DNA of 36,251 nucleotides from Desulfuromonas sp. TF (lineage in GTDB: Bacteria; Desulfobacterota; Desulfuromonadia; Desulfuromonadales; ATBO01). A program made the position numbers and the translations under genes. The stretch is taken from contig NZ_KI421424.1 in NCBI RefSeq assembly GCF_000472285.1, positions 88,181 to 124,431 on the forward strand. Reading direction: 5' to 3'. Positions 1,674 through 34,882 of the stretch are shown one piece after another. The notes beneath the pieces were generated by a model. That model had not been told where the DNA came from and did not search any database. It saw nothing but the letters and a program-made list of their open reading frames with translations. Position 1 is the stretch's first letter; each line of letters opens with the position of its first letter.

Positions 1674-1733
1674 GAAAAACGGGGGAGAACGGAAGATAGA
1701 CGGCGGAAGGCAGAGGACGGCGGACAAGGCATT

Positions 1734-1768
1734 CTGATAACTGATAACTGATGCCTGATACCTGCTTT
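1734..1768. repeat. Degenerate 7-bp tandem array (CTGATAA type)
   Basis: CTGATAA, CTGATAA, CTGATGC, CTGATAC, CTGCTTT in strict 7-nt register. The array ends inside the stop codon of the PEBP-family gene (1767-1769). The preceding GA-rich stretch 1690-1727 has looser 7-nt periodicity of CGGAAGG type. Confidence 0.75.
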
Positions 1769-2246
1769 ATCGGCTGCTTTTCTGATACGTTCCGATCAAT
1801 TCCGCCGCGGCGAGGATATGCCCTTCCATCGCCTTCTCCAACTCCTCCTTGGTCGAACGCTCGTGGAGATCCAGGGCTGTGTCCAAGGCAAAGAGCTTGT
1901 GGAAATAGCGGTGACGGCCAATGGGTGGACAGGGTCCGCCGTAGCCGGTCTTGTCCCAGTTGTTGAGCCCGCTCCGGGCTCCTTCCGGCAGATCCCTCAC
2001 ATCCATGGCTTCCGGCAATCCCGTCGAATCGGCCGGGAGGTTGTAGAGCACCCAGTGAACCCAGGTCATCTTCGGCGCTTCCGGATCCGGGGCGTCCGGA
2101 TCGTCGACGATCAGGGCCAGGCTCCGCGTCCCTTCAGGGATTCCGGACCATTCCAGAGGGGGCGAGATATCCTCGTCCTCGCAGGTGTATTTGGCTGGAA
2201 TTTCATCGTTATCGGCGAAAGCCGGGGAACGGATTTCGAGTGGCAT
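1767..2246 (-). CDS. YbhB/YbcL family (PEBP/Raf-kinase-inhibitor-like) protein
   Basis: The 159-aa product belongs to the phosphatidylethanolamine-binding-protein fold, named YbhB/YbcL in E. coli; biochemical function in bacteria is poorly known. Hallmarks are SPPLEWSGIPEGTRSLAL, the ligand-pocket segment DDPDAPDPEAPKMTWVHWV, and GPCPPIGRHRYFHKLFALD. No signal peptide is seen, so it is probably cytoplasmic. The ATG at 2246 is used because GGAGG stands five nt before it; the reading frame is open upstream to 2384 but without family similarity. It follows the barrel-protein gene by 134 nt, and a promoter candidate in that gap suggests separate expression. Confidence 0.93.
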   Translation of the reverse strand: MPLEIRSPAFADNDEIPAKYTCEDEDISPPLEWSGIPEGTRSLALIVDDPDAPDPEAPKMTWVHWVLYNLPADSTGLPEAMDVRDLPEGARSGLNNWDKTGYGGPCPPIGRHRYFHKLFALDTALDLHERSTKEELEKAMEGHILAAAELIGTYQKSSR

Positions 2247-3673: not shown

Positions 3674-6600
3674 TTATTTGAACTCGATCTTGTAGAAGAG
3701 ATCAACCCCGCTATCTTCCCCCATCTTTGATTCGACCTCCCAGTGCTCGCTGATCTCGTACCGCAACCTGGCCACATTGCTTTCGGTGAAGAGCGACTGC
3801 CCATAGCTGATGTAGAGGCGCGGGCTGAGGTATTTGCCGATCGTCACCATGGAACTTTCGACCTCGCCGCCTCCCGATTCGATGGTCAGGACATCGACAC
3901 CGAGTTGCCTTTTGAGGCGGTCCTGCAGCACAGCCGATTCGCCGCCGGAGAGGAGGGCGCCGGCGGCTCCCATAAGCAGACCGGCACTTTCGCGGTCCCC
4001 ACCCATCGGATGGCCGAGAACGATATAGGACAGTACATCCGTGTCCGGCATGGCAGGGTCGGAGTAGAGCTTCACCACCGGCTCCCGGGGAGTGCCGCCG
4101 ACCTGAACCCCCGCCTTTATTTCGCCGATGGTGCGCAGTGCCAGAATATCCAGGGTCGGCCGGTCGACAGGGCCGCCGGCAAAGAGAATCCGGCCTCGAT
4201 CAATCTTGAGCTGCACACCGTAGGCTGAGTAGATTCCCTCGGCGACACGGATCTCTCCCCTGGCATTGATGTCTTCGATACCCTCTGAAATCAGCGTGAG
4301 CTCCCCTGCGAGACGGGCATCGACGCCTGCGTACCTGATCAGCACGCGCTTTCCGAGGACTACCTTCACCCTGAGATCGAGCGCGATGGGGAGGTCCCCC
4401 CTTTCGGCGGGAGTTTCCCCCCCGACGATCACGACATCTGGGCTTTCCGCCACCATCTCGGGCCTTTTGCGCTCCACGAGGATCAGTTCCGGCAGCTCCA
4501 CTGTCCCGCGCACCTTGAGTCTCTCGGTGGTGCCGCTGAGCTCGAGATCGGGAGAGACGAGGAGCTGCAGCTCGGGGAGATCGACGGCCTGGAAGCGCTC
4601 TCCCTTTACCGTCGCCTGATATTCGACGACCCGCCACTGATCAAGCCGCACCTCTCCGTTCCCCTCGATGCGTCCCGGTCCGGAAAGGGCGGAGAAGGAG
4701 ACGAGACGGAGCCTCTGTCCGGACAGTTCGGCCCTGACCTCAACGTCCTGGATTTCGACGCCTGCGGCGGGGAGATAGGCGCCGGCGCCGCTCAGGTGCA
4801 CCATGCCTCCGAGATCTGGAGAACGCCAGGTTCCGCCGATACTCAGCCGGACCGCCAGTTCTCCTTCACTTTCCCGCAGCAGGCCCGGGAAAATGGCGGA
4901 GAGCAGCCCCTGCTCCCTCATCTCGCCGCTGAGGCGCACCGAGAGCGGCCCCTGCGGCGGGGAGGAAGTGGGTATCCGGGCCGGCAGAGGAAGACTGAAG
5001 GACCCTTCGATCCGTCCGACTTCGGCGAGGGCAATATCCAAGTTTCCCTCCAGGGACTCCCCCTTCCACCGCCAGCTCGCCTCGGCCGTGCTCAGGTCGA
5101 AGGCGACCTCCCCCTCCTCTCGCCTCCAGGTTACTTCTCCATCGCCGACTTCCGTGCTGCCGGTCAGAGCGAGCTTCTGGCCGGGGAGCCACTCTCCCCG
5201 TACCTCTCCGCTCAAAGCTCCCCGGAGGTGAACGGCGGAGGGAATCCAGGGACTCAGGAGGAAGAGATCGATCCGTTCCCATCTCCCCTCAAGAATTCCT
5301 CGCCGGGGCATCGCCAGCGGCGCCTCTTCGGAGTGAAGATCGGCGGCGAGCCTCCCCCCATCCTCCATCTCCGCTTCAAGACGGGCATCGAGTCCGCCGG
5401 CATCCCAGTCGACGGTTCCCTCCACCCGGGAAAAGGAAGCTTCGATGTCCTCCGTCGCCAGTTGCCCCGCCGCTTCGACCCTTCCCTTGATGACAGTTCG
5501 CTCAGCTCCAAGCAGCCTGAGTGCGGCCTCGCCACTGCTGCGCCCCTCCAGCAGGATGGTTTCCGGCAGCCAGGGTCTCAGCAGGGAGAGATCGAGGTCC
5601 CGCCAGCTCCCGTCCAGGGTTCCGCGCCGGGGCACCGTCAACGGCGCCTCTTCGGAGCTCAGATCGGCGGCGAGTCTCCCCCCTCCCTCCAGTTCCGCTT
5701 CGACGCGGGCGGCGAGTCCGCCGGCATCCCAGTCGACGGTTCCCTCCACCCGGGAAAAGGAGGCGGAAAAGTCCTCCAGCTCCAGCCGTCCCTTCGCCTC
5801 GACCCTCCCAGCGACGGCAGTCCGTCCCTGTTCCAGCAGGTGCAGGTCCGTCTTGCCGCTGCTTCGTCCCTCCAGCTTTACGGTTTTCGGCAGAAAGGGT
5901 CCCAGCAGGGAGAGATCGATCTTTCGCCATGTTCCCTCCAGAGTCCCACGCAGGGGGGAGCCGGTCAGACTGGCGGTCATTTCCAGAACCATGTCGGCGC
6001 CCCCCTCCAGGCGCAGAGGCGCAACCCTCACCCTGCCGATTCCGAGCTGCAGCGCCACCGGGTTTACGAGCCGCCAGTCTCCTAATTTGCGCGTCTCGCC
6101 ACGAAGCTGTTCAAGGGTCCCCGCCCAGAACTCTCCCGTCCATCCTCCTTCGGCCCGAAGCATTCCCCGACCCTGCGGCCCGCCTGCGGTCAGGTCCAGT
6201 TCGTGGCTCTCGAGGGTCCCGTCGAGGGACAGCTCGAGGGCGTCCAGGCGCAGCCGATCGTAGGCCAGCCCTCCGGACCGCAGGCGTACGGAAAAGGATC
6301 GTCCTTCGGGACGGTTCGCCTCGCCGCGCAGAGTCGCCGCCCGGGCCCCTGCGAATGCGATCCCATCCCCCTGAAATCCCAGACGGCCGGCGAGCTGCCC
6401 TTCTGCCCAGCGCACCCAGCCTTCCGCTTGCACACTTCCGGCAGCCCCTGGAATGAGTCCGTCGAGCCGGCGCACATCGGCGCTGATCTCCAGCCGCTCC
6501 CGCAGGCGACCGTGGGCGGCAAGATCGAAGCCGTCACCATGCAGTTCGAGGGCGGCGATATTCAGGTCTTCTCCCCGCACGGATAGATCGACCCGGCCGG

Positions 6601-7912
6601 TCAGAGGACGGCCGCGCAGGGTGCTTTCAAGAAGGGCTCCTTCCATTTCGGCCCACAGCGCTTCGCCCGGAAGCTTCTCCAGAGCGCCTTTCAGATCGAG
6701 ATTGACGACCCCGCTCCACCGGGGATCGATGACCGCCGGGTCGAGGCCGCGCCCCTGGAGCATCGCCTCGACCTGAACGCCCTCGCGCCATCCGACGGTG
6801 GCTTCGCCACCGATGGAGCCGCGGAGCCAGGCGCCGTCCAGGTCGCTGAGGGCTACCCCTTCCATGCTGCCGGAAAAACTTCCGGCCAGCCGCCCCTGGC
6901 GCCATCCGGCACCCCGGCTGGAGAGTTGGAAACTCCCCCCGTACTCCTGCAGGGTACCGGAGACCTCGATCCTTCCGCCGAGTTCGGCTGCCACGCCGGT
7001 TTGCCTAGCCAGGTCAAACCCTTTCGCCTCGACTTGCAGCGAGTAGGCGAAAGGGTCCTGCAGGGCGATCTCGCCTTCCCCGCTCAGCACTCCGCCCCAG
7101 GCGGCGTGGGTCAGCTCGAAATCCCGCAGGCGCAGAACCTCCCGGGCGAGGGAGATTTGCGCCGTCAGGTCGAGGATCACCGTCTTCCCTTTTCCCCCGC
7201 GCAGCTGTACTGGACCGGAGAGGAGTGCGTCGGCGTCTTCTTTGAGATCGGCCGTCAATCTGAATCCCTTCAGATCGGCGACCATCTCGGGGAGGCTCAA
7301 TCGCAGGTCGAGATGCAGGAGCGGGCTGACGAATCCCGCCGCCGCGTTCCCCTGCAGGCGATATCCCTCTGCGACGGCATCGAGATCGCTCACCTCCAGA
7401 ATTCCTTCATCCCAGGTGAGCCGCGCCGCCAGGTCAAGACGCCGGGCCTCCCCCTCAGGGGGATGCAGCGTGATGTCCTCAAGGCGCAATTCCTCTATCA
7501 CCGCGTCCAGGCGCAAGGCCCATCCCGATAGCCGCGGCCAGGTGAATTCGGCGGGTCCTTTCTCCTCGGAAGGAGGTTCCGGGCTCGTCGTGATCTCCCC
7601 CCCTTCGAGGGCCAGTTCCACCACCGCGAGATCCCCCTGCAGAAGGCGGCCGGGCTGCCATCGCAGGAGCAGGCGATCGAGCACCGCTTCCGTCCCCTCC
7701 CGGCGGAGCCGTATCCCCTCCAGGAGCAGGTCGTCGGCCAGCCGCCCTTCCACCCGGTCGATCTCCAACTCCGCACCGGCCGCTCCGGCGGCCGTCTCCA
7801 GAAGCCAACGCGCACCCTGCGGAGTGCGCAGCAGCCAGAGACCGGCGGTAAAAACAGAGATGACGGCCAGCAGCAGAAGCGCGGCCATAAGAAGGATCAG
7901 GCGTTTCACCAT
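3674..7912 (-). CDS. tamB: Translocation and assembly module protein TamB (DUF490 family)
   Basis: Large inner-membrane-anchored periplasmic protein of 1412 aa, within the usual range for TamB. With TamA it supports outer-membrane protein insertion and, as an AsmA-like family member, probably lipid transport across the periplasm. One N-terminal membrane segment (about residues 5-27, RLILLMAALLLLAVISVF) is followed by long beta-helical repeats. The conserved C-terminal domain is recognisable from VLGHPMGGDRESAGLL through RLYISYGQSLF to FYKIEFK. The start ATG overlaps the end of tamA by 7 nt, so translation is probably coupled. A 108-residue segment is duplicated in tandem in the middle (see repeat at 5267-5914). 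Confidence 0.93.
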   Translation of the reverse strand: MVKRLILLMAALLLLAVISVFTAGLWLLRTPQGARWLLETAAGAAGAELEIDRVEGRLADDLLLEGIRLRREGTEAVLDRLLLRWQPGRLLQGDLAVVELALEGGEITTSPEPPSEEKGPAEFTWPRLSGWALRLDAVIEELRLEDITLHPPEGEARRLDLAARLTWDEGILEVSDLDAVAEGYRLQGNAAAGFVSPLLHLDLRLSLPEMVADLKGFRLTADLKEDADALLSGPVQLRGGKGKTVILDLTAQISLAREVLRLRDFELTHAAWGGVLSGEGEIALQDPFAYSLQVEAKGFDLARQTGVAAELGGRIEVSGTLQEYGGSFQLSSRGAGWRQGRLAGSFSGSMEGVALSDLDGAWLRGSIGGEATVGWREGVQVEAMLQGRGLDPAVIDPRWSGVVNLDLKGALEKLPGEALWAEMEGALLESTLRGRPLTGRVDLSVRGEDLNIAALELHGDGFDLAAHGRLRERLEISADVRRLDGLIPGAAGSVQAEGWVRWAEGQLAGRLGFQGDGIAFAGARAATLRGEANRPEGRSFSVRLRSGGLAYDRLRLDALELSLDGTLESHELDLTAGGPQGRGMLRAEGGWTGEFWAGTLEQLRGETRKLGDWRLVNPVALQLGIGRVRVAPLRLEGGADMVLEMTASLTGSPLRGTLEGTWRKIDLSLLGPFLPKTVKLEGRSSGKTDLHLLEQGRTAVAGRVEAKGRLELEDFSASFSRVEGTVDWDAGGLAARVEAELEGGGRLAADLSSEEAPLTVPRRGTLDGSWRDLDLSLLRPWLPETILLEGRSSGEAALRLLGAERTVIKGRVEAAGQLATEDIEASFSRVEGTVDWDAGGLDARLEAEMEDGGRLAADLHSEEAPLAMPRRGILEGRWERIDLFLLSPWIPSAVHLRGALSGEVRGEWLPGQKLALTGSTEVGDGEVTWRREEGEVAFDLSTAEASWRWKGESLEGNLDIALAEVGRIEGSFSLPLPARIPTSSPPQGPLSVRLSGEMREQGLLSAIFPGLLRESEGELAVRLSIGGTWRSPDLGGMVHLSGAGAYLPAAGVEIQDVEVRAELSGQRLRLVSFSALSGPGRIEGNGEVRLDQWRVVEYQATVKGERFQAVDLPELQLLVSPDLELSGTTERLKVRGTVELPELILVERKRPEMVAESPDVVIVGGETPAERGDLPIALDLRVKVVLGKRVLIRYAGVDARLAGELTLISEGIEDINARGEIRVAEGIYSAYGVQLKIDRGRILFAGGPVDRPTLDILALRTIGEIKAGVQVGGTPREPVVKLYSDPAMPDTDVLSYIVLGHPMGGDRESAGLLMGAAGALLSGGESAVLQDRLKRQLGVDVLTIESGGGEVESSMVTIGKYLSPRLYISYGQSLFTESNVARLRYEISEHWEVESKMGEDSGVDLFYKIEFK
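5267..5914 (-). repeat. 324-bp tandem duplication inside tamB, with a diverged third unit
   Basis: Two blocks, 5267-5590 and 5591-5914, align without indels. The markers CATCCCAGTCGACGG at 5401 and 5725, and AGATCGAT/AGATCGAG at about 5265, 5589 and 5913, are exactly 324 bp (108 codons) apart. At protein level each unit contains LEGRSSG, SFSRVEGTVDWDAGGL, GGRLAADL, SEEAPL and PRRG. A third, clearly diverged unit begins at about 5915. Confidence 0.9.
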
Positions 7913-9729
7913 CCGAACCCCACACCGATGTGGAGGCGATAGGAAGGATCGGACACGCCGAGCTGCCGGGCGATGTCGATCCGGATCGGACCCACAGGAG
8001 TGTAGCGGCGAATTCCGATCCCAGCCCCCTCGAAGATCTCGTAGTCAGAAAAATTGTCGAAGGCGTTGCCGGCATCATAGAAGACGGCCACACCCCAGTT
8101 CTCACCCAGGGCACGCTCCAATTCGACGCTCCCCACCAGCAGGTTCTTGCCGCCTACAACGTCGCCATTTTCGTCTTCGGGGCCGAGATCCTGGTAGCCG
8201 TAGCCGCGAACGCTCTGATCGCCCCCGGCAAAGAAGCGGAGCGAAGGCGGGATTTCCCGGAGGGGCTCGTTCTGCCATGTGGATCCCGCCTTCACCCGTG
8301 CGAATACGGAGAAACGGGCCGGCAGGGGCACCAGGATGTTGCCCGAGCCGATCGCCTGGAGCAGACCCGTGTCCGAACCTATATCCTGATGCGTGCCTCT
8401 CACCTCGACACTGATCAGATATCCTCCCCGGGGGCGTACCGGGTCCGAATAGGTCCGCCGGCTGAATCGCACGCCGGGAAGGACCAGAAAGGAGGTATCG
8501 TCGTCCTCCTCGCCGACGGTGTAGTCCTCCCGCAGCAGACGGAGGAAGACCGAGCCGGTCATCCCCTTTTTGAAGCCATGCACTCTCTCCAGCTCCACGA
8601 ACAGGGAGGATCGTTCGTAGGTGTCCGGCTGCTCTTTTTCCAAGCCGGCCCGCAGGGCGGTCTGGGTGTTCATGTCCCGCGGGCTGGGGACAATATAGGC
8701 CGCAATGAGATCCTGGCGCAGCTCGGCCACCAGGAAATTCCCGGAAAGTTCGTGCCCGCGATGAAGCATGTTGACATCCTTGTACTGGAGCGTGAAGCGC
8801 GCGCCTGTATCGGTCCCGTATCCGATGCCGGGGCGCAGGCGGCGGCGCGCCGAAGGGACGAGCTGGATGCTTACCGGAACCCGGCGCTCCTGCGCCATTT
8901 CCAGGCGCGGGGTGACGATCACGTCCCGGAAGCGGTCGGAATCGAGGAAGTTGAGCTGTGTCTGTCCGAGGCGGGAATAGGAGAAGCGCTCGTCCGCCTC
9001 GTAGGCCATGTAGCGGCGCAGGAATTTGTCGGGAAACTCGGGTGCGCCATGAATGAGGGTCTCGCCGAACTGAAATCGAGGGCCGGTGGCCAGGACGAGA
9101 TCGATCTCGGCGCTATTTTCTTCGGGATCTACAAGAATGCGGTGCTCGGAAAAAGCGGCGTTGAGGTACCCAAAATCAATGGCCCGGGCCTTGAGTGCTC
9201 CCTTAGCTTTCTCATAGAGGTCCTGTCGCAGAACATCGCCGCGTTTAAGGGGAAAGTCAGCTGTCAACTCGCGCAGTTCCGACTCGTCGCTGCCGGGTCC
9301 CTGGATGAGGATTCCGGCCTCTGTGACCCGGACCGGCTTTCCCTGTTCGACCTGAACGATGAGGTTGTATCGATGCTCCGGAACGAGTTCCTGCAAGGAA
9401 GCCGTCGCCTGGGCATTGTAATAACCGAAGGGCCGAAGCGCCTTTTGGACCAGCTGCGGTGCCCTCTCGGCGAAGCGTTCCAGCCAGCGGCGGTCCACCC
9501 GTTCGTCCCTGACCAGACCGGTCGGCAGGACCAGGGCGGCACGGATGTTTCCCTCCTCATCCTCCCCTTCGACCCCCCGGACCGTCACCTGAACCGCTTC
9601 AGCCGCCTGCGCCGGTACCGCCGCAAGAGGAGTGAACAGCGCGAGCAGGGCAAGAAAAAGAAAGATGGAGCGTTTCGGTAGCAGTGCGCACAAGAGGACC
9701 CCCGCGAGGCGGAAAAAACCAAATTCCAT
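7906..9729 (-). CDS. tamA: Omp85-family outer-membrane assembly factor TamA
   Basis: Outer-membrane partner of TamB. The 607-aa product has a signal peptide ending near PAQAAEA, then POTRA-like repeats (about residues 45-280, including GYYNAQATASL and DFGYLNAAFSEHRI), then a 16-strand barrel domain. The diagnostic loop-6 motif VRGYGYQDLGP is present, and the chain ends with an aromatic residue (GVGFGW) as expected of barrel proteins. The start is uncertain: the ATG at 9729 has a weak ribosome binding site, and later starts would still leave a signal peptide. The small gene size and adjacency to tamB favour TamA over BamA. It follows a terminator after rlpA, so tamAB is likely its own unit. 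Confidence 0.92.
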   Translation of the reverse strand: MEFGFFRLAGVLLCALLPKRSIFLFLALLALFTPLAAVPAQAAEAVQVTVRGVEGEDEEGNIRAALVLPTGLVRDERVDRRWLERFAERAPQLVQKALRPFGYYNAQATASLQELVPEHRYNLIVQVEQGKPVRVTEAGILIQGPGSDESELRELTADFPLKRGDVLRQDLYEKAKGALKARAIDFGYLNAAFSEHRILVDPEENSAEIDLVLATGPRFQFGETLIHGAPEFPDKFLRRYMAYEADERFSYSRLGQTQLNFLDSDRFRDVIVTPRLEMAQERRVPVSIQLVPSARRRLRPGIGYGTDTGARFTLQYKDVNMLHRGHELSGNFLVAELRQDLIAAYIVPSPRDMNTQTALRAGLEKEQPDTYERSSLFVELERVHGFKKGMTGSVFLRLLREDYTVGEEDDDTSFLVLPGVRFSRRTYSDPVRPRGGYLISVEVRGTHQDIGSDTGLLQAIGSGNILVPLPARFSVFARVKAGSTWQNEPLREIPPSLRFFAGGDQSVRGYGYQDLGPEDENGDVVGGKNLLVGSVELERALGENWGVAVFYDAGNAFDNFSDYEIFEGAGIGIRRYTPVGPIRIDIARQLGVSDPSYRLHIGVGFGW

Positions 9730-9762
9730 CCATAATTCTGATCATCAACTATTTTATTCTAA

Positions 9763-9803
9763 CAAAAAAGCCCGGGTCCGGCAGGGGGAGCCGGATCCGG
9801 GCT
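9763..9803 (-). terminator. Rho-independent terminator after rlpA
   Basis: Minus-strand stem AGCCCGGATCCGGC / GCCGGACCCGGGCT (one G-T pair) followed by TTTTTTGTT. It lies between the rlpA stop at 9830 and the tamA start. Confidence 0.88.
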
Positions 9804-9829
9804 GCGGACCGGAAGGCAGGCGATGGATT

Positions 9830-10609
9830 TTAGTCCATCGCGACGGTAAAGCAGTTTGGGAAGCCGCTCTTTTCGAAGTCCACTCTCGCTGTCTCGGCCG
9901 CCTCGATGGAAGGATATTTGCCGACGCGAACCCGGTGGAAAAGGCTTCCGTTGACCCAGCCCTCCTCCACATGGGCGTGACCATGCTTTTCTTCCAACTG
10001 GGCGCTTAGTCGGCGGGCGTTTTCGGCAACGGTAAAGGCGCCGACCTGCACGCTGTAACTTCCTATGGTGTAGCTTTTGGGCTGGCGATAGGCGATTTTG
10101 CCGGCGCCGTCGGTCTCACGATATCCCAGCGCCTCGATCCGCACCGGCGCGGTGCCGGGCCCAACCACGTCAAGTTCCCTCGCCGCCGAATAGGAAAGAT
10201 CGATGATCCGCCCCTTGACGAAAGGGCCCCGGTCATTGACCCGCACAATCGACTGCCTGCCGTTGACGCGGCTGGTCACCCGCACCCAGACGCCTAGCGG
10301 CAGGGTCTTATGGGCGGCGGTCATGGCGTGCATGTCATAGGTTTCGCCGTTGCTGGTCTTTTTGCCGTGGAAATTCGGGCCGTACCAGCTGGCGAGACCC
10401 TCCTCGGAAAATCCTTCGTGCTGATCTCTTCGCATCGGCTGGTATCGCTCCCCGTTGACCTCGTAGGGCTTCTCCCATCCCTTGAGCCCTCTGGTCTCGG
10501 GAGTGTCGATTACGCGGGAGCGGTAGGCCGGTCCGCAGGCGCCGAGCAAAAGGGACAGCAGGAGGATAAGAGACAAAGGGAGGAGAAGGGATTTCAACTC
10601 ATCGGGCAT
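9830..10609 (-). CDS. rlpA: RlpA-like septal/peptidoglycan lipoprotein (DPBB + SPOR)
   Basis: Secreted lipoprotein of 259 aa; RlpA proteins are lytic transglycosylases acting on peptide-free glycan at septa in some species. A short signal sequence ends in the lipobox LLGAC (Cys25). The double-psi beta-barrel spans about residues 70-165, with GLASWYGPNFHGKKTSNGE, the histidine in MTAAHKTLPLG and the aspartate in VRVNDRGPF. A C-terminal SPOR domain (about 180-255, YSVQVGAF) would target denuded peptidoglycan. GGAGAG stands 8 nt before the ATG at 10609. It is followed by a terminator. The upstream gap to the PfkB gene contains inverted repeats. Confidence 0.93.
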   Translation of the reverse strand: MPDELKSLLLPLSLILLLSLLLGACGPAYRSRVIDTPETRGLKGWEKPYEVNGERYQPMRRDQHEGFSEEGLASWYGPNFHGKKTSNGETYDMHAMTAAHKTLPLGVWVRVTSRVNGRQSIVRVNDRGPFVKGRIIDLSYSAARELDVVGPGTAPVRIEALGYRETDGAGKIAYRQPKSYTIGSYSVQVGAFTVAENARRLSAQLEEKHGHAHVEEGWVNGSLFHRVRVGKYPSIEAAETARVDFEKSGFPNCFTVAMD

Positions 10610-10638
10610 GCTGATTACTCTCCGAAGGCCAAGACTTT

Positions 10639-10762
10639 ATCCGCAGATTACGTAGATAAACACAGATGAAAATCAATCTTGAAGGATTCTGGACGAAAGG
10701 CTAACGAGTGTAAAATATTTTGCCTTTGTTTTAATCTGCGAAAATCTGCGTCATCTGCGGAT
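10639..10762. repeat. Inverted ATCCGCAGAT / ATCTGCGGAT intergenic repeat
   Basis: The left arm at 10639-10657 (ATCCGCAGATTACGTAGAT) is mirrored by a right arm at 10733-10762 with three ATCTGCG-type steps ending ATCTGCGGAT. About 75 nt of AT-richer sequence separates the arms. The element fills the gap between the PfkB gene stop and rlpA. It resembles dispersed intergenic repeats rather than a terminator. Confidence 0.7.
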
Positions 10763-10782
10763 AAAAAAATTTCCCGGAAGCG

Positions 10783-11688
10783 CTACGCCTGTTCTGACAA
10801 AAAATTTTCCACCTCTGCAAGGGTCGGAATGGCCGTCCGGCCTCCGAGGGCTCTGGTCTTGAGTGCTGCGCAGGCGGCGGCGAAGCGCACGGTTCGCCGA
10901 AGCTCCCATCCCTGCAGCAGCCCGTAGATGTAGCCACCGTGGAACACGTCGCCACATCCGGTAGTGTCCACCGTGTCGACGGGGAAGGCCCGTTGGTGGA
11001 ACTCCTCCCCTTCGCGGCTCAGGGTGTGGCTTCCCCGCGCCCCGACCGTCACGGTCACGGCCCGGGGGCCGTGACTCAGAAGTTTTTCGAGGGCGCGACG
11101 CGGCTCGTTCCCGCCGCACGCCTGCAGGGCGAATTTTTCGCTGACCACCAGGTGATCGATCAGGGGCAGGAGATCGGCGGTGCCGCTCCGGAAGGTGCCG
11201 CCGTCGAGGACCGTGGTCACTCCGGCCTCCCGGGCGATGCGGGCCGCGGCCAACGAGGCCTCCTGCTGCAGTCCGTCCAAGTGAAGGACCCGGCAACTGC
11301 GGATCGGTGCAGGGTCGATTTCGGAAAGAGAAAGGGGCCGGGCGCTGCCGCGAGTCCAGAAGATGTTGCGGCGGCCGCTCCCATGCTCGACGGCGATGAA
11401 GGCGAACTGACTCGTGCGGCCGGGATCGGTCAGAAGGTTGCCGCAGTCGACCCCTTCGGCAAGGAGTCCGCTGCGGATGCGCGCGCCGAAATCATCGTCC
11501 CCCACCCGGCCGAGAAAGGTCGTCCCAATGTCCATCCTGGCCAGGGTCACCAGCGCCGTGGCCGCCGGTCCCCCTCCCTGGAAAAGGACCTCCCCAAGTT
11601 CAGCCTTGGCATCGACCGCAGGATACGCGTCGACCCGCCCAAGGATATCGTAGGCGCACTGGCCAAGACCGACAACGGCGAAAGGCAT
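10783..11688 (-). CDS. PfkB-family carbohydrate/nucleoside kinase
   Basis: ATP-dependent ribokinase-fold kinase of 301 aa; the substrate cannot be told from sequence. The N-terminal substrate motif FQGGGPAATALVTLARM and FLGRVGDDDFG are typical. The C-terminal signature is DTTGCGDVFHGGY, with the catalytic Asp in GCGD; most family members have GAGD, so this is a Cys variant also seen in a subset of the family. The ATG at 11688 has only a weak ribosome binding site. It follows accA by 44 nt on the same strand and may be cotranscribed with it. The stop lies next to the inverted repeat before rlpA. Confidence 0.88.
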   Translation of the reverse strand: MPFAVVGLGQCAYDILGRVDAYPAVDAKAELGEVLFQGGGPAATALVTLARMDIGTTFLGRVGDDDFGARIRSGLLAEGVDCGNLLTDPGRTSQFAFIAVEHGSGRRNIFWTRGSARPLSLSEIDPAPIRSCRVLHLDGLQQEASLAAARIAREAGVTTVLDGGTFRSGTADLLPLIDHLVVSEKFALQACGGNEPRRALEKLLSHGPRAVTVTVGARGSHTLSREGEEFHQRAFPVDTVDTTGCGDVFHGGYIYGLLQGWELRRTVRFAAACAALKTRALGGRTAIPTLAEVENFLSEQA

Positions 11689-16271: not shown

Positions 16272-16319
16272 GAGATATCAGGTTTCAGGTAAGTTTAGGC
16301 TATCAGGTTTCAAGGTAAG
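16272..16319. repeat. Degenerate 7-bp tandem array (ATCAGGT type)
   Basis: Units such as ATCAGGT, TTCAGGT, AAGTTTA and again ATCAGGT, TTCAAGG keep 7-nt spacing. It lies just upstream of the dnaE start, within its predicted leader. Confidence 0.6.
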
Positions 16320-16376
16320 AAACCGATATCGGTGATGCTGCGGCGTTGCGGTGCCCGGCATCGAGTGAACGCCCGA

Positions 16377-18758: not shown

Positions 18759-18814
18759 TATCAGCTGTCAGTTATCGGATATCAGCTGCAAGCTGCAAGC
18801 TATTAAACTATCAG
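18759..18814. repeat. Degenerate 7-bp tandem array (TATCAGC type)
   Basis: TATCAGC, TGTCAGT, TATCGGA, TATCAGC, TGCAAGC, TGCAAGC, TATTAAA, then CTATCAG, in strict 7-nt register. It fills the gap and enters the stop codon of the MazG-like gene (18811-18813). Confidence 0.85.
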
Positions 18815-19195: not shown

Positions 19196-19219
19196 TATTG
19201 GTGATTGGTGATTCGTTAC
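19196..19219. repeat. Short 7-bp tandem array (TATTGGT/GATTGGT type)
   Basis: TATTGGT, GATTGGT, GATTCGT, TACCGAC in 7-nt register, occupying most of the 39-nt gap between the guaA stop and the MazG-like gene. Confidence 0.6.
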
Positions 19220-19224
19220 CGACT

Positions 19225-20793
19225 CTACTCCCACTCGATGGTCGCGGGAGGCTTGCTGGAGATGTCGTAGGTCACCCGGTTGATGCCGCGCACCTCGTTG
19301 ATGATGCGGTTGCTGATTCGCGCCAGATCGGCGTAGGGCATCGGATACCAGCCGGCGGTCATGAAGTCTCTGGTCTCCACCGCCCGCAGGGCGATGACGT
19401 ACTCATAGGTGCGGCCGTCCCCCATGACTCCAACGCTTTTGACCGGCAGAAAAACGGCAAAGGCCTGGCTGATCTTGTCGTAGTGGCCGCTCCGGTAGAG
19501 CTCCTCGATGTAGATGGCGTCGGCGGAGCGCAGGATTTCGGCGTACTCCTTCTTCACCTCGCCGAGGATGCGCACGCCCAGCCCGGGGCCCGGGAAGGGA
19601 TGCCGCCAGACCATGCGGTGCGGAAGGCCGAGTTCCTCGCCGATGGCGCGAACCTCGTCCTTGAACAGCTCGCGCAGGGGTTCTAGGAGCTTGAGCTTCA
19701 TATAGTCGGGAAGGCCGCCGACGTTATGGTGGCTCTTGATGTTGTGGGCCTTGCCGGTCTTGGCCCCGGCCGACTCGATGACGTCGGGGTAGATCGTCCC
19801 CTGGGCCAGCCAGTTGGCATCCTTGAGCTTGTTCGACTCCTCCTCGAAGATGTCGACGAAGAGATTTCCGATGATCTTGCGCTTCTTCTCCGGGTCCCGC
19901 TCGCCGGCGAGAGCCGATAAAAAGCGCTCCTCAGCATCGACACGGATCACCTTGACCCCGAGATTCTCGGCGAAAGTCGACATCACCTGATCCCCTTCGC
20001 CCAGGCGCAGCAGGCCGTTGTCGACGAAGACGCAGGTGAGCTGTTCGTCGATGGCGCGGTGGATCAGGGCCGCCGCGACCGAGGAGTCGACGCCGCCGGA
20101 GAGTCCCAGGATGACATGATCGCCGCCGACCTGCTCGCGAATGCGCGCCACGGCATCCTCGATGATCTGCCCCGGCGTCCACTGCCCCGTGCACCCGCAG
20201 ATCTTGCGCACGAAGGTGTCTATGAGCACCTCGCCCCGGGGGGTGTGGTTCACCTCGGGATGGAACTGGACTCCATAGAGACTGCGCTCGACGTTCTGGA
20301 TGGCGCACACCGGGGCATTGTCCGTCCCCGCGACCACCTCGAAGCCGGCCGGCACCTTTTCGACGTGATCGCCGTGACTCATCCATACCGGGCTTTTCCC
20401 CTCGAGAAAGAAGCCGTCGAACAGGGGACCGGGAGCCCCTTTGGGATGAACCTGAAGATCGGCATGTCCGAACTCGCGTTTGCCTGCCGGAACCACCTCG
20501 CCACCGAAATGGCGGGAGAGAAGCTGCATGCCGTAGCAGATGCCGAGAACGGGCACGCCGATTTCGAAAAGCTCCTCCGCGACCGCGGGGGCGCCTTCCT
20601 CGTAGACCGATTTGGGGCCTCCGGAGAGAATGATCCCCTTGGGAGCGAAGGCCCGGATGGCCTCAAGCCCCATGTCGAAAGGGTGCAGCTCGCAGTAGAC
20701 GTGCGCCTCGCGCACCCGCCGGGCGATCAGCTGGGTGTACTGGGAGCCGAAATCGAGGATGAGTATTTTTTCTCTGTGGATGTCCTGCTGCAT
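19225..20793 (-). CDS. guaA: GMP synthase (glutamine-hydrolysing)
   Basis: Converts XMP to GMP using glutamine and ATP. The 522-aa product (E. coli 525) has the class I amidotransferase domain first ([15 protein letters not shown], nucleophile Cys in GICYGMQ, triad His in [11 protein letters not shown]). The ATP-pyrophosphatase domain follows (P-loop [11 protein letters not shown]) and the dimerisation domain ends in PPATIEWE. The ATG at 20793 is chosen because it gives the family N-terminus and has GGAG 10 nt upstream; the frame extends to 20823 without support. It lies 51 nt after guaB on the same strand, forming a guaBA operon, with a perfect palindrome in the gap. Confidence 0.98.
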
Positions 20794-22403: not shown

Positions 22404-23474
22404 TCAGTTGGGTATGAAACTCCCGCTGTCGTTGATCCTGTACATGAGGGCTGTCAGCAGGCGCACGGTATTCTCGATATCGGCCAGGGAGAGGACCTCG
22501 GAGGGGGAATGCATATAGCGCAGCGGAACACCGACCAGGGCCGTGGCAACGCCGCCGCGGCAAAGCTGCATGACGTTGGCGTCCGTGCCGGTGGCCCGGG
22601 GAGAGCCGGAGATCTGATAGGGAATCCCCTCGCTCCGGGCGGTTTCGACGAGCAGGGCGAAGAGGGCAGGATTGATGTTCGCCCCCCGGGTGATGATCGG
22701 ACCGCCCCCCACCTTTGTCTCACCGACCTCCTTCTTGTCCACGTCTGGAAAGTCGGTCGCAAAGCCGACCTCCACGGCAATGCCGATGTCGGGATTCACA
22801 CCATAGGCGCTGGTGGTGCCGCCGCGCAGACCGAGTTCCTCCTGCACGGTGGAGACGCTGTAGAGATCGACGGGGGCCGCGCCGCGCCGCCGCACTTCCT
22901 GGAGCACGCGGGCGACGATGAACGCCCCCATTTTATCGTCGAAGGCCCTGGAAGTCACCCGGTCCCTCTGAAGGCGCTCCATGCCGACGGCGAAGGTCAC
23001 CGGGTCGCCGACGGCCACCAGAGCCTCGGCTTCGGCCCGGTCGCCGCAGCCGATATCGATGAACTGACTTTTGAACTTGACGACGGTTTCCCGGTCCTTA
23101 GCTTCCATGAGATGGATGGGCTTCTTCCCGACGACCCCCGCCAGCGGACCGGATGCGGCATGAACCTGAACCCTCTGTCCCGGCACCAGGTGGGCGTCGA
23201 CTCCGCCGATGGGAGCAAAGTAGAGGAAGCCGCCGTCGTCTATGTACTTGACCATGAAGCCGATCTCGTCGCAGTGCCCGGCCAGCATCACCCGCGGAGC
23301 CCCTTCCCCTTTCCCCTTGAGCCGGGCGATGACGTTCCCCATCACGTCCGTGCGCACCTCGTCTGCCACCCCTTCCAACTCGCGGCGCAGTACCCGTTGG
23401 GCCGGCTGCTCGAACCCCGATGGGCTGGGGGTTTCCACGAGTTCTTTCAGAAAGTTGAAGTCTTTATCGTTCAT
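22404..23474 (-). CDS. M42-family metallo-aminopeptidase (FrvX-like)
   Basis: Dinuclear-metal aminopeptidase or endoglucanase-like hydrolase of the M42/TET family, 356 aa. Metal ligands can be placed: His in LAGHCDEIGF, Asp in SRAFDDKMGAF, the Glu pair in TVQEELGLRGGTT, Glu in AVEVGF (usually Asp-type position) and His in RYMHSPSEV. TET enzymes form large shells that degrade peptides; the true substrate here is unknown. The ATG at 23474 has AGAGG 8 nt upstream, and the frame N-terminal of it runs into a 7-bp array. It is downstream of the PHP gene on the same strand. Confidence 0.93.
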   Translation of the reverse strand: MNDKDFNFLKELVETPSPSGFEQPAQRVLRRELEGVADEVRTDVMGNVIARLKGKGEGAPRVMLAGHCDEIGFMVKYIDDGGFLYFAPIGGVDAHLVPGQRVQVHAASGPLAGVVGKKPIHLMEAKDRETVVKFKSQFIDIGCGDRAEAEALVAVGDPVTFAVGMERLQRDRVTSRAFDDKMGAFIVARVLQEVRRRGAAPVDLYSVSTVQEELGLRGGTTSAYGVNPDIGIAVEVGFATDFPDVDKKEVGETKVGGGPIITRGANINPALFALLVETARSEGIPYQISGSPRATGTDANVMQLCRGGVATALVGVPLRYMHSPSEVLSLADIENTVRLLTALMYRINDSGSFIPN

Positions 23475-23485
23475 GGGAAAACCTC

Positions 23486-23590
23486 TGTCATTTGTCACTG
23501 GTCATTGGTCACTTGCGGTTGCTGTCCGTAGTCAGTCGTCAATGGTTCTCGCCTTTACAAAGGACAAAGGACTAATGACAAATGACGCTT
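23486..23590. repeat. Degenerate 7-bp tandem arrays (TGTCATT and ACAAAGG types)
   Basis: First array: TGTCATT, TGTCACT, GGTCATT, GGTCACT, TGCGGTT, GCTGTCC, GTAGTCA, GTCGTCA in 7-nt register. A second array follows from 23557: ACAAAGG, ACAAAGG, ACTAATG, ACAAATG. Together they fill the gap between the M42 and PHP genes and end at the PHP stop codon. Confidence 0.9.
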
Positions 23591-23591
23591 T

Positions 23592-24242
23592 TCACTTCAA
23601 CGCCTTCTTCACCAGCTCTTCCGAATTCCGCCGGCACTGCTCGAACTGCTCTTCCGTCAGCCCCGCCCCCAGGGCGATCCTGCGGGCCATTTCTGGGGAG
23701 ACGAGGTCTCCCGGGCCGTGAGCATCGTTGTTGACCACCATGCGGGCGCCGGCGGCCAGGGCCGTGCGGGCCACGTGGCCGTTGGAGAGAGAGTGTCCCT
23801 TGCGGGTGGTGATCTCCAGGCAGATTCCCCGTTCCGCGGCGAGCGCCGCCTCCTCGGCGGTAATCAGTCCGGGATGGGAGAGGATGTCGATGTCCGCCGC
23901 GAGGGCGGCCCGATTGGTTCCGGGCGCCACCGGCTCGGTGAGCGTTTCGCCGTGGCAGACGACGATTCTCGCCCCCAGGGCGCGGACCTCGCCGGCAGCG
24001 GCGGCGATCATCGCCGGAGGAATGTGGGTCAGCTCGATCCCCGGCAGGATGGTGATCCCCCAGGCATCTCCGAGTTCAGCCGCCACCCGGACGAGCCGAG
24101 GAATGATCAGATCGAAATTGGAAAAATCGCCGTGATCCGTGATGGCGATAGCCCTGTATCCGGCCACCGCGGCGCGCCGGGCAAGCTCTACCGGGATCAA
24201 TTCCCCGTCGCTGAACACGGTATGGGTATGCAGGTCGATCAT
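23592..24242 (-). CDS. PHP-domain phosphoesterase (histidinol-phosphatase-like)
   Basis: Metal-dependent phosphoesterase fold of 216 aa. The metal-binding motifs in order are MIDLHTHTVFSDG, AITDHGDFSNFD, ILPGIELTHI, VVCHGETL, DILSHPGLIT and NNDAHGPGDL, all intact. A specific substrate cannot be read from the sequence; it could be histidinol phosphate or a nucleotide. It begins at an ATG preceded by GGAGGAAAA-like sequence on the minus strand and follows miaB by 58 nt, so it may be cotranscribed. A 7-bp array stands on both its sides. Confidence 0.9.
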   Translation of the reverse strand: MIDLHTHTVFSDGELIPVELARRAAVAGYRAIAITDHGDFSNFDLIIPRLVRVAAELGDAWGITILPGIELTHIPPAMIAAAAGEVRALGARIVVCHGETLTEPVAPGTNRAALAADIDILSHPGLITAEEAALAAERGICLEITTRKGHSLSNGHVARTALAAGARMVVNNDAHGPGDLVSPEMARRIALGAGLTEEQFEQCRRNSEELVKKALK

Positions 24243-24261
24243 TCTTTTCCTCCGGAAAAGA

Positions 24262-24333
24262 GGTTTCAGGTATCAGGTCTCAGGTTTCAGGCTCAGCTTT
24301 TCATGATTCCTGATTCCTGGAGCCTGATTCCTC
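24262..24333. repeat. Degenerate 7-bp tandem arrays running into the miaB stop
   Basis: GGTTTCA, GGTATCA, GGTCTCA, GGTTTCA, GGCTCAG in 7-nt register, then from about 24304 TGATTCC, TGATTCC, TGGAGCC, TGATTCC. The second group lies inside the coding region of miaB and encodes its last residues. Confidence 0.9.
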
Positions 24334-25653
24334 AATTTCGCCGAGCTGGCTGTTCTTCCGTGACGCGACGATCCTCACGTTGATGACCTTTCCGACCAGC
24401 GACCAGTCGCCGGCGAAATTGACGATGCGGTTCCAGGTGGTACGGCCGAAAAGCTGGCCGTCCCCCTGTCGGCTCTCCCCTTCAACCAGCACCGGCAGGA
24501 TTTTTCCGCAGTCCCCTTCCCAGATTTCACGGCTGTTCTTCTCCTGCAGGGCCAGCAGACGGTCAAACCGCTCCTGCTTCTCCTTCGCCCCGAGATCGTC
24601 GGAAAGTGCGGCCGCGGCGGTGCCGGGGCGGGGGGAATAAAGGAAAGAGAAGATGTCGGCATAACGCACCTCGGCGGCGAGGCTCAGAGTTTCCTCGAAA
24701 TCCTCCCCGGTCTCTCCCGGGAAACCGACGATAATGTCGGAGGTAAGGCGGATGTCGGGGCATACCGTCTTGAGGCGGCGCACCTTGTCCAGGTATCCTT
24801 CCCGGTCGTAACCGCGGTTCATCAGCTGCAGGATGCGGCTCGAACCGCTCTGCACCGGCAGATGGATATGTGTGCACAGCTTGTCCAGGATGCCGAAGCA
24901 GTCGATCAGCTCGTCGGAGAGATCCTTGGGGTGGGAGGTTGTGAAGCGGATCCGCTCGATTCCTTCGATTTCGTGAACCCGGGCCAGCAGTTCGGCAAAA
25001 GAAAGCTCCCCCGCTTCCTTGCCTCCGTAGGAATTGACGTTCTGCCCGATGAGGGTGACTTCGCGGACGCCACTGTCGGCCAGATGCCGGATTTCGTCGA
25101 GGATCTCGGCGCTGGGACGGCTCACCTCCCGTCCGCGCACGTGAGGGACGACGCAGTACGAACAGAAGTTGTCGCATCCTTGCATAACGGTGACGAAACG
25201 GGTGACCGAATCCCCTTCGGTCCGGACGGGGAAGAGCTGCAGCCGGGTTTCCCTGTCGAGAAACTCGGTCTCGTGGCAGCGCACCCGGTTTTCCTCCACA
25301 CTGCGCACCATTTCAGGGAGCTTGTGCACGTTGTGGGTCCCGAACACCAGGTCGAGATAAGGAAGCTTCCGGAGAAGGCGCTCCCCTTCCTGCTGGGCGA
25401 CGCACCCCCCGACGCCGAGGATGAGGGCCGGGTTCTCGTCCTTGAGGGGCTTGAAGCTCCCCAGGTGCCCGTACACCTTGCGCTCGGCCTTGTCGCGGAC
25501 CGAACAGGTATTGAGCAGGATCAGATCGGCCTCGGCGGCGTCGGCGACCTCCCCGTACCCGATCTGTCGGAGCAGATCGACGATCCGTTCCGAGTCGACC
25601 ACGTTCATCTGGCAACCGAAGGTCTCCAGGTAGAATTTCTTATTCATAAACAC
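24301..25653 (-). CDS. miaB: tRNA-2-methylthio-N6-dimethylallyladenosine synthase MiaB
   Basis: Radical-SAM methylthiotransferase acting on i6A37 of tRNAs reading UNN codons. The 450-aa product has the UPF0004 domain with three cluster cysteines (LETFGCQMN, LLNTCSVRDKA, GVGGCVAQQEG), the radical-SAM motif GCDNFCSYCVVPHVRG, and a C-terminal TRAM domain (about 380-440). AGGA stands 9 nt before the GTG at 25653 and 15 nt before the ATG at 25647, so the GTG is possible; choosing ATG would remove two residues. The C-terminal tail GSRNQES is encoded by 7-bp repeats. A promoter candidate lies just upstream. Confidence 0.97.
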   Translation of the reverse strand: MFMNKKFYLETFGCQMNVVDSERIVDLLRQIGYGEVADAAEADLILLNTCSVRDKAERKVYGHLGSFKPLKDENPALILGVGGCVAQQEGERLLRKLPYLDLVFGTHNVHKLPEMVRSVEENRVRCHETEFLDRETRLQLFPVRTEGDSVTRFVTVMQGCDNFCSYCVVPHVRGREVSRPSAEILDEIRHLADSGVREVTLIGQNVNSYGGKEAGELSFAELLARVHEIEGIERIRFTTSHPKDLSDELIDCFGILDKLCTHIHLPVQSGSSRILQLMNRGYDREGYLDKVRRLKTVCPDIRLTSDIIVGFPGETGEDFEETLSLAAEVRYADIFSFLYSPRPGTAAAALSDDLGAKEKQERFDRLLALQEKNSREIWEGDCGKILPVLVEGESRQGDGQLFGRTTWNRIVNFAGDWSLVGKVINVRIVASRKNSQLGEIEESGSRNQES

Positions 25654-25726: not shown

Positions 25727-25820
25727 GTGATGCGTGACGAGTGATGCGTGACGGGTTTAAAAGCCGGTGATATAGAAAGAGAACCGCTATTGTCACTGAT
25801 CACTGTTCACTGATCACGCT
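25727..25820. repeat. Degenerate 7-bp tandem arrays (GTGATGC and TCACTGA types)
   Basis: GTGATGC, GTGACGA, GTGATGC, GTGACGG at 25727-25754, then TCACTGA, TCACTGT, TCACTGA, TCACGCT from 25793. The second array covers the stop codon (25807-25809) and last codons of the PH-domain gene. Confidence 0.88.
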
Positions 25821-26316
25821 TTACGGTCACGGTCTCCTCCAGCAGATCGGTCGCCCTGCGGGGATACTCCAGACAGTGCAGAACGAGGGGTTTGGATGAA
25901 CGATCCCCATGGATGCGGATGGTCCCCAGGTTCTCAGCCTGATATTTTAGTTGGAAATAGGTCACCTGTGCCAGTGGCAGAGCATTCACTCGCTGCCGGC
26001 GAATCCCGCTGAGAGCCAGGACGCGCCGGTCGGTGATGGCGTAGAAAACCCTTTCCCACTCCAGCCTGGATCGCAGCAGATGACCGAGGGAGAGATACAG
26101 GGCCGCCAGCAGAACGGGCAAAGGTATCCAGGCGATGAAGGAAAGTCCGTAGGCCATGGCGAGCTCGAGTGCGACGATCTGCCAATAGACGGCGATGATC
26201 AGAAGGAAGAGGCCGAACAGGGAATGCCGCCAGTTGCGGAAGGTGAAACACCGCGGCGCAGGCCGTCCCTCCCAGCGCACCGTTTCCCCCTCCCCCAGAA
26301 AGGAAGACCAGTCCAT
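25807..26316 (-). CDS. Bacterial PH-domain membrane protein
   Basis: The 169-aa protein starts with a short segment typical of bPH proteins (GEGETVRWEGRPAP). Two membrane helices follow at about residues 32-53 and 58-78, then a soluble bacterial pleckstrin-homology domain (YAITDRRVLALSGIRRQRVNAL; LAQVTYFQ; GTIRIHG). Function is unknown. Its ATG follows the M48 protease stop with no gap (TAA-ATG), so the two are translationally coupled and probably work together at the membrane. The last codons and stop fall in a 7-bp array. Confidence 0.85.
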   Translation of the reverse strand: MDWSSFLGEGETVRWEGRPAPRCFTFRNWRHSLFGLFLLIIAVYWQIVALELAMAYGLSFIAWIPLPVLLAALYLSLGHLLRSRLEWERVFYAITDRRVLALSGIRRQRVNALPLAQVTYFQLKYQAENLGTIRIHGDRSSKPLVLHCLEYPRRATDLLEETVTVKRDQ

Positions 26317-34318: not shown

Positions 34319-34882
34319 ATGAAAAAACAGCAGACCTACCAGATCCAGGACGTTCTTAAGGAAATGCGGGAGGAGTACTGGAGGGGAATCGAGGAGGCCG
34401 AAGAGGCCACGGCTTCTGAAACCCGCGATTTCGTGGTGATCCGCCTGGCCGGTGAACGCTACGGTCTTTCCGCCTCGGCAGCCCGCGAAGTCCTGCGGAT
34501 GCCCCGCCTCATCCGCGTGCCGAGGGTAGTCGACCATATCCGGGGGGTCATCAACCTGCGCGGAGAGATCGTGGCGGTCACCGATCTGCGTCGAATGCTG
34601 GGGTTGCCCGGAGAGGATCTCCCTGCCGGCGGGAGGCTGGTGGTGGTGGAGACTGCCGGGCTGGTCACCGCCCTTCTGGCGGAACGGGTGGAAGGAATCC
34701 AAAGCATCGCCGTCGATTCGATCGAACCGTGTACGGAGGGGTTTGCCGGGTTTCCCCGGGAGGCGGTTGCGGGACGGACGGTGGGGGAGGAAGGTCTGTT
34801 GATTCTCCTCAACCTGGAGCATATCCTGTCCCGCTCGGAGTTCGTGATCGATCAGAAAAGAGAGGGCACGCATAACGCGTGA
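34319..34882 (+). CDS. CheW-like chemotaxis adaptor protein
   Basis: Couples receptors to the CheA kinase. The 187-aa product is longer than simple CheW (about 150-170 aa) because of an N-terminal helical extension of about 36 residues (QDVLKEMREEYWRGIEEAEE). The CheW core follows: DFVVIRLAGERYGLSASAAREVL, IRVPRVVDHIRGVINLRGEI and VAVTDLRRMLGLP. The C-terminal residues EGTHNA are encoded where a 7-bp array begins. It lies between the receiver and the receptor gene on the same strand, as expected for an Mcp signalling cluster. Confidence 0.93.
   Translation: MKKQQTYQIQDVLKEMREEYWRGIEEAEEATASETRDFVVIRLAGERYGLSASAAREVLRMPRLIRVPRVVDHIRGVINLRGEIVAVTDLRRMLGLPGEDLPAGGRLVVVETAGLVTALLAERVEGIQSIAVDSIEPCTEGFAGFPREAVAGRTVGEEGLLILLNLEHILSRSEFVIDQKREGTHNA

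Follow-up and report, generated by a model that had tools for sequence, protein, structure and literature searches.

The stretch analysed here, referred to throughout as the window, comprises 36,251 nucleotides (G000:C13:88181-124431) of the Desulfuromonas sp. TF genome (G000; 4.40 Mb in 17 contigs), and several of its gaps between protein genes carry arrays of 7-nt units. At three of these gaps, two arrays face each other as inverted arms. The first site holds an element of the heptamer family GTC[AC]TT[TG], with an arm of four heptads at 23487..23514 (lag-7 cluster 23481-23516) that adjoins the start of the minus-strand gene 22404-23474, a 44-nt loop without notable open reading frame (23515..23558), and an opposite arm of four heptads at 23559..23586 (cluster 23552-23593), which lies 5 nt off the stop codon of the gene 23592-24242, also on the minus strand. 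At the second site, an arm of four GGTnTCA units plus GG (24262..24291, units counted by eye; cluster 24255-24334) is located near the start of gene 23592-24242 and is paired with four TGATTCC-type units at 24304..24332, which overlap the 3' end and the stop codon of a MiaB-like gene (24301-25653, minus strand). The third site consists of four GTGAnGn units at 25727..25754, where TRF reports 1.9 perfect copies of a 14-mer (25727-25753), and of three TCACTGn units plus TCAC at 25793..25817 (cluster 25790-25828), overlapping the 3' end of the minus-strand gene 25807-26316. RNA fold z values for the three hairpins are -2.6 (23487-23586), -4.0 (24262-24332) and -3.5 (25727-25817). We note that the array at 24301-24340 encodes the final residues of the MiaB-like gene (about EIEESGSRNQES) as well as its stop codon; the G000 MiaB-like protein, named by eye, is 78-79% identical to Desulfuromonadales MAG proteins.

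Two further arrays are single, and both were found as lag-7 clusters and by TRF. One is made of 4.4 copies of CTGATAA, a rotation of TAACTGA, at 1728..1771, and the other is a mixed TATCAGC/AGCTGCA array at 18766..18802; neither forms a hairpin (RNA fold z of +0.9 and +0.6, respectively). Thus, the stem from complementary ends that characterizes a 23S rRNA intervening sequence (IVS) is present at the three paired sites and absent at 1728-1771 and 18766-18802, and all window elements sit between protein genes, not inside a 23S rRNA gene. The initial annotation had listed eight gaps with period-7 arrays, and those at 1734, 18759, 23486, 24262 and 25727 are solid. The one at 19196 is marginal, with 2.4 copies of ATTGGTG detected by TRF at 19197..19213 and a best lag-7 score of 14/21 for the gap. 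The remaining two are not supported: at 16272..16330 there is an inverted repeat containing GGTTTCA (z -3.9) with a TRF period of 25, below threshold for period 7, and at 34868 neither a TRF row nor a lag-7 cluster was obtained. No Rfam family matched the window elements at gathering score, and no PF05635 match was found in the window on C13. Elsewhere in the window, a 324-nt tandem repeat (1.9 copies, 5296-5919) lies inside a 1412-residue open reading frame (3674-7912).

Scanning the window with a sliding 28-nt frame, in which a cluster was called at 20 or more lag matches, gave six clusters at lag 7, two at lag 9, one each at lags 18 and 21, and none at lags 3-6, 8, 10-17, 19 and 20. The analysis was extended to 436 kb of G000, with genes from a home-made caller and 15 of 21 lag matches required per gap; stretches picked around GTCATT matches were excluded from gap counts, coding-chunk counts and the inverted-pair search. 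Lag 7 was detected in 21 of 267 gaps against 0.2 in shuffled sequences, so that the excess over shuffled intergenic sequence on which the initial annotation had staked its observation is borne out; lags 14 and 21 were found in 18 and 8 gaps, and the mean for lags 4-6 and 8-13 was 1.7 gaps. Coding 250-bp chunks showed no lag-7 excess (3/1067). By gap type, lag 7 was present in 17/194 co-directional, 3/31 convergent and 1/42 divergent gaps. The earlier statement that divergent promoter regions are devoid of arrays is thereby reduced to a trend (1/42 divergent versus 20/225 other gaps, P=0.12), and divergent gaps with lag 7 occur in two other genomes, G019 (2/25) and G012 (1/16). In relatives, lag 7 was present in 11/117 gaps of G019, 5/88 of G012 and 1/71 of G033, in 11/36 gaps of three pooled loci (L111, L110 and L010), and in 5/176 gaps pooled from fifteen further stretches of fifteen genomes. 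The heptad arrays are therefore real, genome-wide and intergenic, and, as 7-nt direct repeats that lie between genes and exceed chance, they have the properties of STRR-like heptanucleotide repeats.

The typical strong site consists of two inverted arms of approximately 30 nt (four heptads plus about 2 nt) that flank a short loop, and the pair typically spans the whole gap from stop codon to next start; the initial annotation had missed that most strong sites are such inverted pairs. When 509 gaps were searched for two arms with reverse-complementary consensus, pairs were found in 17 gaps at lag 7, compared to 3, 0, 2, 3 and 1 at lags 5, 6, 8, 9 and 10, and in none of the lag-7 shuffles. Four units was the commonest arm size (14 arms), followed by three (8) and five (6). 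The GTC[AC]TT[TG] family was characterized from 20 stretches fetched around family matches plus the unbiased sample; of 34 arrays, only those in the 20 pairs were kept, and 12 of these 20 paired elements, from stretches partly chosen around matches, have exactly 4+4 units. Positions 1, 2, 3 and 6 of the unit are near-fixed (151, 152, 149 and 148 of 153 units) and positions 4, 5 and 7 are variable; a unit of four constant and three variable nucleotides is seen by eye in several families, and was counted for GTC[AC]TT[TG] only. Fifteen of the 20 elements start 3-7 nt past the stop codon that precedes them; 18 are located between co-directional genes, and 13 of these end 5-13 nt ahead of the next start. 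Their loops range from 3 to 84 nt and are apparently unrelated by eye, which speaks against simple copying of whole elements. A second set, of 20 loci from G013, G070, G120 and G132, contained 11 paired elements, five of them 4+4. Positive covariation between the units of the two arms was absent. We also considered that arms might avoid perfect complementarity, which was indicated in 12 G000 elements (P=0.007) and not reproduced in the second set (five elements, P=0.38; ten elements with at least four units, P=0.46); the pooled value (17 elements, P=0.001) is given for completeness and avoidance is not claimed.

Rfam searches of the GTCATT elements of L149, L154 and L160 returned nothing at gathering score, and that of the L153 element at E<=1 nothing besides a sub-threshold snoRNA match. 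Three observations were made in passing in these stretches: in L153 a GTCATT element lies in frame within a mannose-1-phosphate guanylyltransferase-like open reading frame (7765-9252, named by eye), with ...VPMVNNDFTNDQGQMTND... as its translation; in the same locus the reading frame 9709-11076 begins inside a right arm (MTNDKGQMT...); and the minus strand of L149 carries, at 19250-19344, an Rfam atoC RNA (RF01733) with 50.8 bits for a gathering score of 50.

Comparison with relatives indicated turnover at individual gene boundaries. The boundary at the 3' end of the MiaB-like gene carries CAGGnnT in G000, CAGnnnC in G008, CATCCTT in G009 and AAGGnnn in L010 (with another gene following), and in G010 the gap is 9 bp. 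The neighbouring boundary holds the GTCATT element in G000 and, by eye, inverted 8-mer arrays in G008 and G009, and has gaps of -1 to 28 bp in five relatives. Occupied, differently occupied and empty versions thus exist, indicating that a boundary can be empty and that its occupant differs. In L111 and L110, the gap orthologous to window positions 23475-23591 is occupied by 8-nt arrays in inverted orientation, which by eye resemble CGCAAAGA, as against the 7-nt element of the window. For conserved gene pairs compared between G000 and G008, G009 or L010, arrays were present in both genomes in 3 cases, in G000 only in 8, in the relative only in 5 and in neither in 5; same-gap occupancy does not demonstrably exceed chance, and we do not claim conservation of sites. 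In cases with an array in G000 but not in the relative, the median gap is 117 versus 72 bp (33 comparisons, 7 gaps).

A link to a protein family emerged from L153, in which GTCATT arms 420 bp apart enclose a 122-residue open reading frame encoding a TIGR02436/PF05635 four-helix-bundle (S23) protein. This protein (P0002) scores 87.2 bits against TIGR02436 (cut-off 24) and matches 2gsc_A with an E value of 9.9e-7. G000 itself has nine PF05635 matches, eight of them above the Pfam cut-off, at eight places (two are broken genes) on contigs C1, C2, C3, C7 and C11. A tandem array adjoins all eight places, and arrays occur on both sides of seven, at lag 7 in six cases and at lag 8 in one; 6/8 PF05635 places thus have lag 7 on both sides, versus 3/365 genes in general. 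The flanking units are GTGATCG, GTCCCGA-like, GCTTACA, the 8-mer TTCAACGA, GTCCTCn, GTCATTn and GTGATCT-like, together with one lag-9 array.

We surveyed the strand-corrected flanks of the best-scoring PF05635 loci, 37 genes of the order and 29 of the rest of the phylum, at lags 4 to 12. Loci were taken by protein score and not by their flanks, the order set including the eight G000 places that had originally drawn attention to the link; L177, the second half of a broken gene, was dropped and treated with L176. An array was found upstream of the gene in 26/37 cases in the order and 24/28 in the rest of the phylum (lag 7 in 23 and 19), and downstream in 29/37 and 17/29 (lag 7 in 26 and 13). Both sides were occupied in 22/37 and 15/28, and at least one in 33/37 and 25/28; controls placed 600 bp further out gave 1/34 and 0/26 for both sides, and 9/34 and 6/26 for either. 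When the 65 genes testable on both sides were pooled, 37 had arrays on both sides and 58 on either (controls 1/60 and 15/60), with P values of 7e-13 and 7e-14 that are optimistic, since some loci are close relatives; seven of the 65 had an array on neither side. In the cases with lag 7 on both sides, the inverted orientation fits better than the direct one in 12/20 (order) and 12/13 (phylum), and direct pairs do exist. Periods of 8, 9 and 6 were also found beside PF05635 genes. Five near-identical PF05635 matches with in-frame stops lie in a nested regional duplication at G347:C1:3064000-3088500 (L272, L273); we considered these copies as a test of element ends, for which the nesting of 215-nt units with heptads makes them unusable. 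In addition, many genomes contain a weaker PF05635-like group (E of about 1e-8 to 1e-4), often covering model positions of about 8-73 in frames mostly of some 190-330 residues, which is possibly a distant relative.

Arrays without an adjacent PF05635 gene resemble those that flank such genes in the same genome. When solo arrays were compared with own-genome flanks and with an equal number of flanks from other genomes, treating arrays as independent, the own flanks were closer for 23 of 31 arrays in G000 (six PF05635 loci, P=2e-4), 14 of 18 in G019 (one locus, P=0.019) and all 7 in G012 (one locus, P=0.008). The solo families GTCATTn, GCTTACA, GTGATCn and GTCCTCn each also flank a PF05635 gene in G000; for the CAGG and AAGG solo families, no PF05635 copy with such a heptamer was seen by eye in G000. 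Within the order, the pattern GTCATTKGTCATTKGTC (GTCATT) has a patchy distribution, occurring in 15 of 136 genomes, and its reversed control occurs in one (G053). A PF05635 match at E<=0.001 was obtained in 14 of these 15 genomes versus 57 of the 121 without the pattern (P=5e-4), although the matches of G117, which is among the 14, fall below the family cut-off. Tract lengths, measured without reference to any heptamer family, are also similar: the commonest lengths are 27-32 nt beside PF05635 genes (25/78 tracts) and 30-35 nt in solo gaps (14/50 tracts), with medians of 30 and 29.5 nt, respectively, among tracts of <=45 nt; shuffled sequences gave four periodic tracts, all shorter than 24 nt. 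The initial annotation was thus right that the period-7 phenomenon is not tied to one sequence, since several heptamer families exist; its view that the heptamer differs from site to site is correct as regards families, and has to be qualified in that heptamers recur, GTC[AC]TT[TG] at 20 paired sites. The various heptamers seem to represent separate families within a single kind of element.

The association extends beyond the phylum. A tblastn search with P0002 identified 17 plasmid records (12 cyanobacterial, four from Riemerella and one from Azospirillum), and 12 of the genes, 11 cyanobacterial and the Azospirillum one, were fetched and examined for arrays within 150 bp. Lag-7 arrays lie upstream of 10/12 and downstream of 5/12, compared to 1/12 each at control distances, in counts where L213 and L218 share one identical protein; the array is absent in L207. 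The likeness to cyanobacterial heptanucleotide repeats suggested by the initial annotation is hence strengthened, as cyanobacterial four-helix-bundle genes are bracketed by arrays of the same kind. Several plasmid copies occupy operon gaps, between cas10/cmr2 and cmr3 in L208 and between cas6 and cas4 in L212 and L214, so that four-helix-bundle genes are found among CRISPR-cas genes on these cyanobacterial plasmids. The Azospirillum copy (L216) lies within a 23S rRNA gene (RF02541, 2430.6 bits) with arms AGAGGACGGATGACAGAGGACGGAGGACAG and CCGTCCTCTGTCTTCTGTCATCC; it is an intervening sequence of 23S rRNA whose arms are made of heptads. In one open-access library we found no paper describing a general link between PF05635 and heptads.

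Our proposal is that each heptad array forms a terminal arm of an IVS-like element, and that these elements make up a family linked to the S23 protein; we give this reading a probability of about 0.72. A full element would consist of an arm of about four heptads, an S23 (PF05635) gene and a second arm of about four heptads, usually inverted; the paired sites of the window would be gene-less versions with a short non-coding loop, located between co-directional genes, and its single arrays would be lone arms. Once transcribed, the arms could pair as an imperfect stem that brings the stop codon beside the next start, and RNase III might cleave this stem, as happens in rRNA IVSs. Because arm pairing would fold the insertion away, operon gaps and rRNA loops would be tolerant sites. 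A ring-shaped S23 protein could recognise the 3-4 nt that stay constant in each heptad and recur about five times, once every 7 nt; a ring reading evenly spaced cores would account for a fixed period and arm length despite a freely changing sequence. Passages of PMC4990558 describe the Xanthomonas S23p as a homopentamer, and S23 four-helix-bundle proteins as being without known function. We infer that the S23 protein binds the arms and, as to the route of spread, that it helps the elements persist or spread; arrays as long as 10 units or more would have expanded later by slippage.

The main alternative is that the arms came first, heptad hairpins arising and spreading alone and PF05635 genes landing in their loops. 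It would fit the abundance of gene-less pairs, the G000 families for which no PF05635 copy was seen by eye and the unrelated look of the loops of gene-less elements. Nevertheless, bracketing on at least one side is frequent and recurs in a 23S rRNA gene, and the solo arrays of a genome resemble the flanks of its PF05635 genes, and we regard this order of events as unlikely; even if it applied, the frequent bracketing and the 23S rRNA case indicate that the arms would still belong to the system. The initial annotation had instead argued that the arrays are not copies of one mobile element and hence are made or maintained locally. Such a view amounts to replication slippage with a preferred 7-nt step at permissive gene boundaries; a slippage proposal by Mrazek 2007 is quoted in PMC4679880. 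Long near-perfect arrays, such as GTGATCG with about 10 units (C17:63437) or CTCACTC in G019, and copy numbers that differ between relatives are what slippage would produce. It predicts, however, neither inverted pairs nor arms of about 30 nt, recurrent families or the bracketing of one gene family. The recurrent family, the two-arm design of about four units and the PF05635 bracketing leave the claim of local origin unsupported, and slippage as the whole story, disfavoured by arms that are paired, inverted, about four units long and recurrent, seems to us scarcely probable.

We likewise consider it very unlikely that the arrays resemble REPINs or MITEs mobilized by a transposase that has nothing to do with PF05635, with PF05635 as a passenger. 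Families that are dispersed, inverted, intergenic and genome-specific would suit such elements, and G000 has two Y1 transposase genes; yet the one examined, in L100 (G000:C10), has no arrays beside it, and bracketing that recurs in other phyla is not what one would expect of a gene merely carried along. A RAYT likewise appears unlikely, judging from this Y1 gene, one of two, without adjoining heptad arrays. Two copies of GTATACTGTCCCCGTAAC, a sequence with no relation to the heptads, come after the Y1 gene in this locus (7500-8400). We also rejected a reverse transcriptase acting in trans, and an assignment to diversity-generating retroelements (DGRs) or other retroelements, since PF00078 (RVT_1) has 0 matches in G000, the control search being positive in 3/14 genomes.

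Intergenic heptanucleotide repeats are known from separate descriptions in a number of bacterial groups, and their origin is not agreed. We tentatively extend the S23-linked element reading to these, and consider it possible, if doubtful, that the heptanucleotide repeats of distant bacteria, including STRRs and TAACTGA repeats, are one phenomenon, the tracks of pentameric S23/Avd-like proteins. Each arm would then offer about five cores of 3-4 nt placed 7 nt apart, one per ring subunit, in a manner comparable to the TRAP ring, which reads evenly spaced triplets; protein and core would change together, so that period and arm length stay and the sequence drifts; and, with no reverse transcriptase in the genome, the protein would drive the spread of its own gene, and of copies that lack it, to rRNA genes and operon gaps. 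A rule that links heptad arrays to S23 genes makes both testable, the arms offering a candidate substrate for an orphan protein family and a source for STRR-type repeats. In this picture, an element that frequently sits between protein genes would have rRNA intervening sequences as one of its outlets and, if this is right, several puzzling bacterial repeats share one explanation.

Among known systems, the heptanucleotide STRRs of cyanobacteria, reportedly described by Mazel in 1990, resemble the arrays in their 7-nt tandem units between genes, and cyanobacterial four-helix-bundle genes are bracketed by heptads. The STRR2 unit, which we take to be TTGGTCA, has GTCATTG as a rotation. Unlike the elements reported here, STRRs have to our knowledge been described as direct arrays with no linked gene family. 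TAACTGA repeats of Beggiatoaceae, Cyanobacteria and Bacteroidetes, as presented in passages of PMC4679880, are likewise intergenic, and the CTGATAA array at 1728-1771 is a rotation of their unit; they differ in being mainly one heptamer located mostly just upstream of start codons. The same passages propose them as the binding site of a translational regulator and do not mention a link to S23 genes. PF05635 is said, in a passage of PMC10053308, to resemble Avd of DGRs, from which G000 differs in having no RVT_1 gene. The closest comparison is with the 23S rRNA IVS of Coxiella, whose excision by RNase III is described in passages of PMC4990558. The window elements, which may undergo such excision, differ from it in that they sit between protein genes and have no open reading frame. 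In both cases complementary ends close a loop, which in Coxiella holds the S23/PF05635 gene; according to the same passages, heptameric GACAGAT repeats precede the S23p open reading frame, and the stem measures 28 bp, that is 4 x 7.
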